Positions 18,801 to 21,709 of a stretch of 64,000 nucleotides of DNA are shown here, in pieces; position 1 is the first letter of the stretch; each line of letters starts with the position of its first letter. The notes under the pieces were generated by a model that saw nothing but the letters and a program-made list of their open reading frames with translations, was not told the origin of the DNA and made no database searches. The position numbers and the translations under genes are program-made. The stretch lies in the NCBI GenBank assembly GCA_016780385.1, contig JADHLY010000006.1, positions 1 to 64,000 on the forward strand. The letters are read 5' to 3'. The stretch is from Flavobacteriales bacterium (GTDB lineage: Bacteria; Bacteroidota; Bacteroidia; Flavobacteriales_D; Sanyastnellaceae).

Positions 18801-19357
18801 GGGAGAACAGCGCCAAGCTGACCCACCAAGATGGCACCGTTTATTTCGAGCGGAGCTATCCCGAGGCCAACACCCAGTACCGCGACACCATCTACCTCAA
18901 CCAAGGATGCTACACCTTCGAGTTTCAGGATGCGGATGACGATGGCATTAGCTTCTGGGCCAATGACGACGGCAGCGGGTTTGTGAGGTTACGCAAAGTG
19001 GGGGGCAACTGGATCACGTTCGAACCGGATTTCGGCAAATCCATTGTGCACCGGTTCCATTTCGAAACCAACCTCGTCAATGACGTTGCAGCGCCCCCGG
19101 TAGATGCCACCTCATTCAAGGTTCACCCGAACCCCACCAGCGGTGACATCGGATTTACGCTTGAAGGTTGGCAGGGTCGTTTTGAATGGCAGCTTCAGGA
19201 TGCCGCTGGACGTGTGGTGCGTTCGGGCATCGGTCAAGCCTTTGAAGGGGCCGCCTTCCAAGGCCGGATCCCTGTGCAAGACGTGGTGCCAGGTGTGCAC
19301 ATGCTCACTTTGATGCAGCCCGGCAGGGTCACACGCCAGCGGGTTGTGATTTTCTGA
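15875..19357 (+). CDS. Secreted PNGase F-like / LamG (concanavalin A-like) domain protein with T9SS sorting domain
   Basis: N-terminal 'TYTFEAQNNPETAYDSPGRRWFNFPPSDNGVEYGKVLMEYTLKC...GEWDYLSYTYL' resembles PNGase F-related proteins; LamG-like 'ITIECWVYGDP...WNHWAFVKNADTGIMEMYLNGALFHSGTN'; C-terminal 'FKVHPNPTSGDIGFTL'. Confidence 0.75.
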   Translation: MNPSVFRLFSLLFVLSVSCSVLHADTTTVQTYTFEAQNNPETAYDSPGRRWFNFPPSDNGVEYGKVLMEYTLKCFEDGTAGNLGYACGEWDYLSYTYLFDHTGMLDSADLQHPFQLLADAPFDTTHLVPYVEGVQDSVWLEAAQYVADMVVSESVVQPGEVVYVTPFFESTTSKRAQFLWKAEELAPLGAGSIDRIFLPVSGTPDIRRMDLKWGLTGDSALTGFMDLPNTSYTYGVSPWQFGDSLSIRLSPPITWDGESNLVLEFALDGVTMEGEGEQLGGVPVTGSAGGAWTTDGHDGEVDFTAPDRVEVDVTDLQGLSSEITIECWVYGDPNSQPENGTLFEGINAAGQRVVNVHLPWSNGRVYWDCGQDGGYDRIDQQAQPEDFEGRWNHWAFVKNADTGIMEMYLNGALFHSGTNKDNPIEGIVKMNLGASGNGNNRYNGRVDDFRVWSQALDGATIASWMNRQPTAWHPNYDALLVDYRFDGANGTEEVNHHPGGSPGYHHGTTLRRPTPGRERAKGLGEDFRPHVGFARGEYLEYVVDGSILDLRPIAPMSLSTWEVQGNDVAMTDLTYHYAPGETASVPVFGDTVTYPVPGAVSQVINDTLSYYGVPFEVIDRYELYRYITPYGIGLDLGDDGWTWWYDVTDYLPLLRDSVELQAGNWQELLDLKFHFIEGEPARDVLDVEAFWKGQYNLSTFDENVVGYEYTPTSDQSMWRLKTRASGHGFGTGNNCAEFCYNIHKVKVDGQELWSWQIMRECADNALYPQGGTWIYDRAGWCPGAPVDTRDMELTPHVAGDAPFTVDYDVDFDPYGNYRFEGQIIAYGPANHSLDAELVEVLAPSGTKLASRTNPICDRPKVVLRNSGSTPLTSCTITFGLPDNLQSFTWTGELGFLEEEVVELVALYAALWDGDEEEDLTFVARVSAPNGGEDEVAWNDEVRSTFRRPPTYTYMEDPGDEDDNRLIVFVRTNSTPWENSAKLTHQDGTVYFERSYPEANTQYRDTIYLNQGCYTFEFQDADDDGISFWANDDGSGFVRLRKVGGNWITFEPDFGKSIVHRFHFETNLVNDVAAPPVDATSFKVHPNPTSGDIGFTLEGWQGRFEWQLQDAAGRVVRSGIGQAFEGAAFQGRIPVQDVVPGVHMLTLMQPGRVTRQRVVIF

Positions 19358-19376
19358 TTGAAGCCCCAAAAAAGGG

Positions 19377-19402
19377 AGTTTGGGTTCATAAAACCCACTT
19401 TT
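19377..19402 (+). terminator. Possible weak terminator
   Basis: AGTTTGGGTT-CATA-AAACCCACTTTT imperfect hairpin with T-run, 20 nt after stop. Confidence 0.4.
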
Positions 19403-19410
19403 CAACACAA

Positions 19411-19485
19411 GACCCCCTTCAAATAGGGGGTGGTTGGGAGAAAAGCAGTCAAATTTTGTGCGTGGCCCCTATTTATGAGGGGGTC
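19411..19485. promoter_or_regulatory. Paired palindromic operator-like elements upstream of glutamine synthetase III
   Basis: CCCCCTTCAAATAGGGGG (19412-19430) and CCCCTATTTATGAGGGGG (19466-19483) are each palindromic and are near reverse complements of each other; TAAATTTG box at 19492-19499. Confidence 0.55.
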
Positions 19486-19519
19486 AGTGCGTAAATTTGC
19501 CCCTTCAGACACAAAAATC

Positions 19520-21709
19520 ATGTCAACGTACCGCATTACCGCCATCGAGGATGTCCTCGAGCGCTCACCGAAGGCTACAGTGCCGCCTTCTTCCAAGATT
19601 TCCGATTACTACGGAGACTTGGCGTTTACTGTCAACGCCATGCGCGAGTACCTCACCGAAGAGGCCTATGACCACGTGGTGGCCGCCATGGTTGATGGCA
19701 TTCGGATTGACCGGAAGATCGCAGACCAAGTGGCCAGCGCTCTGAAGGAGTGGGCCATGGCCCGCGGCGCTACGCACTACACCCACTGGTTCCAGCCGTT
19801 GACAGGCAGCACAGCCGAGAAGCACGACAGCTTCATCCAGCCCGATGGCCAAGGCGGAGCGATCGAGCGTTTTGATGGCAGCCTGTTGGTACAGCAAGAA
19901 CCCGATGCTTCGAGCTTCCCTAACGGCGGCATCCGCTCCACATTTGAGGCCCGGGGTTACACACTGTGGGACCCCAGCAGCCCGCCTTTCCTCATCGGTG
20001 AGACCCTCTGCATCCCCACCATCTTCATCGCCTACACGGGTCAGTCCCTCGACAACAAAGCCCCCTTGCTCAAGGCCTTGGCTGCCGTTGACAAGGCTGC
20101 AACCGAGGTGTGTCAGTACTTCGACAAGAACGTGACCAAGGTGGTGGCCACCCTCGGTTGGGAGCAGGAGTACTTCCTGGTGGACAAGGCGTTGTACAAT
20201 GCCCGTCCGGACCTCAGCCAGACCGGCCGTGCACTGCTCGGTGCTGCGCCTGCCAAGGGCCAGCAATTGGACGACAACTACTTCGGCAGCATTCCTCCGC
20301 GCGTCATGGCGTTCATGCAGGAGTTTGAGTGCGAATCTCACAAGCTCGGCATCCCGGTGACCACCCGCCACAATGAGGTGGCACCCAACCAGTTCGAGGT
20401 GGCACCCGTGTTCGAGGAGGCCAACCTCGCCAACGACCACAACCTGTTGTTGATGGACCTCTTGGAGCGGGTGGCACAGCGCCACGACTTCCGCGTCCTG
20501 TTGCACGAGAAGCCGTTTGCTGGACTTAATGGCTCAGGCAAACACAACAATTGGTCGCTCGGTACCAACACAGGGGTGAACCTCTTGAAGCCCGGTGTCA
20601 ACCCCAAGACCAACCTGCGTTTCCTCACCTTCTTCGTAAACACCATTGCGGCCATCCACCGCCATGCCGATGTGCTGCGTGCAGCCATTGCCGGAGCAGG
20701 CAACGATCACCGTCTCGGTGCCAATGAGGCGCCGCCGGCCATCATCAGCGCCTTCATTGGTTCTAAGTTGACGGAGCTTCTCGACGCTGTCGAAGAAAAC
20801 GTCAGCGCAGGCAAGATGAGTCCCGACGAAAAAACGGCTGTGAAGTTGGAGATCGGTCGCATTCCGGAAGTGCTGCTCGACAATACGGACCGCAACCGGA
20901 CTTCGCCGTTCGCCTTTACCGGCAACAAGTTCGAGTTCCGCGCGGTCGGCAGTACCGCCAACTGCGCTGTGCCCATGACGGTGCTCAACACCATTGTGGC
21001 CGAGCAGTTGAATTTCTTCAAGGCTGCGGTTGATGCACGCATCGCATCCGGAGACAAGAAGGACGAGGCGTTGCTCAAGGAAATCCAAGCCTTGATCAAG
21101 CAGAGCAAGTCCATCCGCTTCGAAGGCAATGGTTATGGCCAGGAATGGGTGGAGGAGGCTGCCAAGCGCGGACTCTCCAACCTGATGGACACTCCGAGCG
21201 CCTTGGCCGTGTGGGACCGCAAGGAAACTGTGGAGCTGTTCGAATCCATGGGCGTTTTGAGCGCAGAGGAGGTGGCCGCCCGTACGGAGGTCGAGTTGGA
21301 GAACTACGTGATGAAATTGCAAATCGAGGCCAGCGTCCTCGGCGACATGGTGACCAACCAGGTGTTGCCTGCGGTGATGGACTACCAAGGCGACTTGCTG
21401 GCCAACATCCAGGGCTTCATGGACGTGTATGGCGACAGTGATGCAGAGGGCATGACCCGGGCCCAGCGTGGAATCTTGGAAGAGCTTTCTGCCGGATTGT
21501 CAGCGACTTATGCTGCGTTGGAGTCATTGCGCGCAGTGCGTTCGAAGGTCAACGGCATTGACGGCCTTCACGAGAAAGCCGCCGCATATGCTTCCGAAGT
21601 CCGTCCGTTGATGGATGAATTGCGTGTCCAAGTGGACCAGTTGGAGAAGTTGACGGAGGACGGCCGCTGGCCTTTCCCAAAACTGCGTGAATTGCTCTTT
21701 ACACGCTGA
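19520..21709 (+). CDS. glnN: Glutamine synthetase type III
   Basis: ~729 aa GSIII-size protein; 'GAIERFDGSLL', 'GWEQEYFLVD', 'PVTTRHNEVAPNQFEVAPVFEEANLANDHN', 'LHEKPFAGLNGSGKHNNWSLGT'. Start moved from 19430 to the ATG at 19520 (MSTYRITAIEDV). Confidence 0.95.
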   Translation: MSTYRITAIEDVLERSPKATVPPSSKISDYYGDLAFTVNAMREYLTEEAYDHVVAAMVDGIRIDRKIADQVASALKEWAMARGATHYTHWFQPLTGSTAEKHDSFIQPDGQGGAIERFDGSLLVQQEPDASSFPNGGIRSTFEARGYTLWDPSSPPFLIGETLCIPTIFIAYTGQSLDNKAPLLKALAAVDKAATEVCQYFDKNVTKVVATLGWEQEYFLVDKALYNARPDLSQTGRALLGAAPAKGQQLDDNYFGSIPPRVMAFMQEFECESHKLGIPVTTRHNEVAPNQFEVAPVFEEANLANDHNLLLMDLLERVAQRHDFRVLLHEKPFAGLNGSGKHNNWSLGTNTGVNLLKPGVNPKTNLRFLTFFVNTIAAIHRHADVLRAAIAGAGNDHRLGANEAPPAIISAFIGSKLTELLDAVEENVSAGKMSPDEKTAVKLEIGRIPEVLLDNTDRNRTSPFAFTGNKFEFRAVGSTANCAVPMTVLNTIVAEQLNFFKAAVDARIASGDKKDEALLKEIQALIKQSKSIRFEGNGYGQEWVEEAAKRGLSNLMDTPSALAVWDRKETVELFESMGVLSAEEVAARTEVELENYVMKLQIEASVLGDMVTNQVLPAVMDYQGDLLANIQGFMDVYGDSDAEGMTRAQRGILEELSAGLSATYAALESLRAVRSKVNGIDGLHEKAAAYASEVRPLMDELRVQVDQLEKLTEDGRWPFPKLRELLFTR

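Follow-up and report, generated by a model that had tools for sequence, protein, structure and literature searches.

Several described systems use paired or phased binding sites. In the Firmicutes, glnRA carries two operators, one of which lies near the promoter. LysR-type regulators such as GltC use a strong upstream recognition site and a weaker promoter-proximal site, with the two dimers in phase, and regulators of the Lrp/AsnC family occupy phased arrays of multiple sites with A/T-rich centres. The operator of GlnR and TnrA, which belong to the MerR family, is 21 bp long (PMC9249791), and glutamine acts as a cofactor for one archaeal Lrp/AsnC member (PMC3584215). In Bacteroides, the Crp-family protein Cur (BT4338) recognizes the site wwwTATGTTnTAnAACATAwww (PMC6989115). 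In Prevotella ruminicola 23, ammonium has a strong effect on glnN-2, amtB, glnK, and gltBD (PMC5552732), but the open literature that reports this strong control of glnN gives no regulator or site for it. The DNA-level control of ammonia assimilation in the Bacteroidota appears to be undescribed.

The locus considered here lies in a 64,000-nucleotide stretch of a Flavobacteriales genome (the window), directly upstream of glnN, the main gene for ammonia assimilation, which encodes a type III glutamine synthetase (GSIII). Two palindromes, termed sites A and B, precede the gene and are probably the binding sites of one and the same dimeric GSIII regulator, arranged in phase and responsive to nitrogen. 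The features of the region are as follows.

19364 to 19376, no strand assigned: CCCCAAAAAAGGG, perhaps a third, degenerate site, which precedes site A by about 52 bp
19412 to 19431, no strand assigned: candidate operator site A, ACCCCCTTCAAATAGGGGGT, an ACCCC-N10-GGGGT palindrome kept in relatives
19432 to 19463, no strand assigned: linker between the sites, with a loose TTGRTRAAAA...TTTTT pattern in relatives that is weak in this genome
19464 to 19485, no strand assigned: candidate operator site B, GGCCCCTATTTATGAGGGGGTC, with the core CCCC-N10-GGGG at 19466 to 19483
19492 to 19499, plus strand: -7 box TAAATTTG, of the Bacteroidota housekeeping promoter type TAnnTTTG
19504, plus strand: predicted transcription start, derived from a box at -12 to -5 (PMC9723704), with a leader of about 16 nt
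19520 to 21709, plus strand: glnN, glutamine synthetase type III, 729 aa, assigned by Pfam domains

The glnN product matches GSIII_N (1.5e-72), Gln-synt_C-ter (4.3e-39), and Gln-synt_C (4.6e-16) and classifies as type III. Upstream of it, a check of the window finds GACCCCCTTCAAATAGGGGG at 19411-19430 and CCCCTATTTATGAGGGGGTC at 19466-19485. The sequence-only reading, an earlier annotation of this DNA, had described these as two self-complementary palindromes that are also near reverse complements of each other. Both descriptions hold: each site has the form (A)CCCC-N10-GGGG(T), and the arms can form 17 pairs with an internal loop, a mutual complementarity that arises because one palindrome is present twice. 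The arms of site A are perfect over 7 bp, ACCCCCT-N6-AGGGGGT (19412-19431), and in a common register the site is written ACCCC, CTTCAAATAG, GGGGT; site B is written CCCC, TATTTATGAG, GGGG, then T, with flanks weaker than those of site A. The centre of site A lies at about 19421.5, or -83 relative to the predicted transcription start, and that of site B at about 19474.5, or -30. The distance between them is 53 bp, so the five helical turns proposed earlier stand, while the distance of about 55 bp does not. Likewise, a -7-like box does come directly after site B, with a gap of 6 nt, but the ATG starts 20 nt after the box instead of 21.

Sites A and B are the only matches to CCCC-N10-GGGG in the window, where about 2.4 would be expected by chance, and what is unusual is the adjacency of both in one promoter, not their number. 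The composite AGGGGGT-N(25-50)-CCCCY-N(8-25)-TANNTTTG has one match in the window against 0.01 expected, and ACCCCCT-N6-AGGGGGT with zero mismatches is found as a single copy, site A, in the 1.86-Mb genome. Other near-palindromes in the same genome fall almost all within open frames, and loose searches that allow three mismatches return mostly noise. Further upstream, CCCCAAAAAAGGG might, with low confidence, be read as a degenerate third site with a gap of N6 instead of N10; in some members of the genus an additional half-site, AGGGG, precedes the -7 box by 117-120 bp, and CCCCAAAAAAGGG sits near that register. After the upstream gene, TGGGTTCATAAAACCCACTTTT at 19378-19402 of the window looks like a weak terminator hairpin.

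In Flavobacterium psychrophilum, the housekeeping TAnnTTTG box occupies -12 to -5 (PMC9723704). A TAnnTTTG starting 15-75 nt before the ATG is present in 141 of 158 glnN upstream regions, compared to 5 for the reversed pattern. If TAAATTTG serves as the promoter here, transcription would start near 19504, and sites A and B would both remain untranscribed. On inspection of the sequences, the Flavobacteriaceae have a TTTG some 22 bp before the -7 box. Its counterpart in the window's own genus, TTTTG, is separated from the box by about 33 bp, a distance that could make for a weak glnN promoter in need of help. Neither a sigma-54 -24/-12 element (TGGCACG-N4-TTGC) nor NtrC sites were matched at glnN.

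The element is conserved well beyond this genome. Of 60 related genomes, 58 contain GSIII (no match was obtained in G043 and G044, both near-complete genomes from the order), and upstream regions from the genus, the family, and the order share one order of parts: AGGGGGTG, an A/T-rich linker, ACCCCC, TAnnTTTG, and the ATG. The same arrangement is seen in named genera of a broader collection, including Tenacibaculum, Polaribacter, Aquimarina, Chryseobacterium, and Arenibacter, as well as in some Bacteroidales. The element is found at glnN in nearly all genus members and in most Flavobacteriales sampled. There is no sign of the motif at glnN in the Sphingobacteriales (Pedobacter, Solitalea) and hardly any in the Chitinophagales, and several distant relatives retain half-sites only. 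Many of the sequences compared come from uncultured organisms with incomplete genomes.

Counts across these regions define the motif more closely. Among 158 glnN upstream regions, CCCC-N9-GGGG, CCCC-N10-GGGG, and CCCC-N11-GGGG occur 44, 59, and 30 times, giving a sharp optimum at gaps of 9-11 with a mode of 10, and the reversed GGGG-N-CCCC is absent from the same regions at these gaps. At least 10 of the 12 half-site bases are found in 14 of 16 regions from the window's own genus, 11 of 19 from the family, 11 of 20 from the order, and 20 of 30 from named Flavobacteriaceae and Weeksellaceae, where shuffled sequences lead one to expect 0-0.3 per group. A strict composite pattern matches 67 of 299 genomes of the order, compared to 5 matches for a reversed-pattern control. 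Nearly all of the fetched loci with this pattern (29 of 30) run straight into GSIII, and in the remaining one, L177, which lies at a contig end, the pattern is followed by a partial GS-like frame. The distance between the sites, taken between equal edges, is most often 52-53 bp, both within the window's own genus and in other lineages. The centre of site A, by contrast, precedes the -7 box by 70 bp in the genus and by 60 bp in other lineages, so both sites seem to have shifted together, by roughly one turn of the helix.

Complementary arms in front of a gene can also point to RNA, and the sequence-only reading had offered a large RNA hairpin as an alternative. The arms would then form one large hairpin or two alternative ones in the glnN leader, acting as a riboswitch or attenuator. 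Both the complementarity of the arms and the folding of the strand, which is better than that of its shuffles (z -3.05 and -3.64), speak for this, but among 13 genus members there is no covariation, as neither paired cells nor double changes rise above shuffles for the local or the long-range pairing. Three genomes (G007, G012, and G013) lose one arm with no compensation, most relatives have the -7 box downstream of both arms, and there is no Rfam match, so an RNA element is very improbable. Protein binding sites are favoured because of this lack of covariation, the uncompensated arm losses, the position of the sites upstream of the -7 box, and the 52-53 bp spacing that is constant although the pair has shifted by about 10 bp against that box between lineages. 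Still less credible is the view that the palindromes are the terminator remnant of the upstream secreted-protein gene, which had also been suggested earlier, or a mobile palindromic repeat. C/G-rich inverted repeats close to a gene end would fit either origin, but the plus strand has no terminator-like site, the perfect palindrome occurs once in the genome, and across relatives the motif tracks glnN, not the upstream gene. This glnN-specific conservation contradicts the terminator remnant.

A closer competitor, though an unlikely one, accepts both sites as protein binding sites and makes them independent, with site A bound by an activator, site B serving as a separate site of repression or polymerase blocking, and no contact between dimers. 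It would account for the single palindrome visible in several Flavobacteriaceae and for the full palindrome appearing twice in only 7 of 141 regions. It does not sit well with a spacing of 52-53 bp that persists when the two sites shift together and that recurs at a second gene, ald. The paired operator of a dimeric regulator with phased spacing, as first proposed from the sequence, draws its support from this constant spacing and from the conservation in relatives.

Under the paired-operator reading, each dimer would recognize ACCCC-N10-GGGGT, with a centre that is A/T-rich or unconstrained. Two dimers about 53 bp apart would face the same side of the DNA and could make contact through a short loop or a wrap. 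Site B would cover the interval that separates the -33 region from the -7 box, and the dimer complex would decide whether RNA polymerase uses the TAnnTTTG promoter, with nitrogen or glutamine status as the most likely signal. The analysis shows the sites with their conservation, phasing, and promoter position, and the N-assimilation genes that they accompany. Which protein binds, whether the dimers touch, and whether control is positive or negative are inferences, and looping between sites A and B is plausible. Repression in nitrogen excess is a guess, made because site B overlaps the promoter, and the data do not separate it from activation.

The link to nitrogen comes from the other genes that carry the operator. 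It lies about 235-300 bp before amtB in G027 and G067, two species of one genus (g12) in the same family whose upstream genes differ, and two copies 52 bp apart precede the alanine dehydrogenase gene (ald) in G057. Like GSIII, both AmtB and alanine dehydrogenase function in ammonium assimilation, and the operator at amtB in g12 and at ald in G057 therefore supports the nitrogen control of GSIII that had been proposed, as far as sequence can indicate it. The suggested search upstream of amt and gltB gave a divided answer: the motif precedes amtB in some relatives, but amtB of the window's own genus is without it, gltB is missing from that genus, and the gltB loci of relatives lack the motif. 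In the genus, a different conserved palindrome, CGTGTCCAAAGTACACG, is found about 100 nt before the amtB ATG (L072, L075, L077-L085, L087, and L090), and a Crp-family gene of about 213 aa lies about 2 kb downstream of amtB; together they suggest a second circuit. The amtB leader in g12 is long and conserved between the two species (L074:1190-1393; reverse strand of L299), with a possible hairpin, CAGGCAAACGACTC...GTGTTTGCCT, and no Rfam match. The sucD promoters of six genus members (L181-L186) hold AGGGGGTGTGC, CCCC, and TACTTTTG in a similar order and give a composite match. As an operator target, sucD is probably a chance hit, because its AGGGGGTG half seems to be located within or at a divergent reading frame.

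The loci compared have no transcription factor gene beside glnN. The LysR substrate-binding domain was found in none of 17 genus genomes, four of which are at least 94% complete, and Lrp/AsnC proteins are absent from 15 of the 17 and present in 2. The Crp HTH domain has no match in G017, which is 98% complete and has the motif. A small MerR-family protein (about 110 aa) occurs almost throughout the order (L300-L343), and its gene in the window's genome (L330:1447-1773) adjoins an M23 peptidase-like gene. The operator size would be plausible for a MerR protein, but this one is a doubtful candidate for the regulator: no autoregulatory site accompanies it, a sensitive search did not detect it in G005 (96% complete, with the sites kept), and it is retained in G043 and G044, which have no glnN match. 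No family tested is represented in all of the motif-bearing genomes, although assembly gaps weaken each exclusion.

The chances are about even that the genes with this motif form the regulon of an undescribed nitrogen regulator of early origin in the Bacteroidota, shared by the Flavobacteriales and some Bacteroidales at least. This regulator would bridge the two phased GSIII operators and, in some lineages, would have acquired control of amtB and alanine dehydrogenase as well. In the open literature searched, no description was found of the motif sequence, of a case in this phylum, or of the probable regulator. A defined 90-bp element with an invariant core offers a direct bait for that regulator in marine flavobacteria and possibly in their rumen and gut relatives.

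Set beside the described systems, the locus resembles each in part. GlnR and TnrA in the Firmicutes likewise use short, loose-centred palindromes at a glutamine synthetase promoter and respond to a nitrogen signal, but they act on GSI, whereas here the gene is GSIII and no glnR-like gene is adjacent. Their operator TGTNAN7TNACA is found in none of the 158 glnN regions, and its best match in 19350-19520 has 3 of 8 positions mismatched. Cur likewise has a palindromic site, of 22 bp, at a promoter that includes a -7 element, and differs in the sequence of that site; neither the Crp/Fnr site TGTGAN6TCACA nor the Cur TATGTTNTANAACATA site occurs exactly in any of the 158. Lrp/AsnC regulators share the phased sites and A/T-rich centres, but the family is missing from most of the genus genomes. 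The layout of sites A and B resembles that of GltC, with the difference that LysR domains are lacking in the genus. For a glutamine synthetase gene, paired operators in phase are an arrangement of a known kind.
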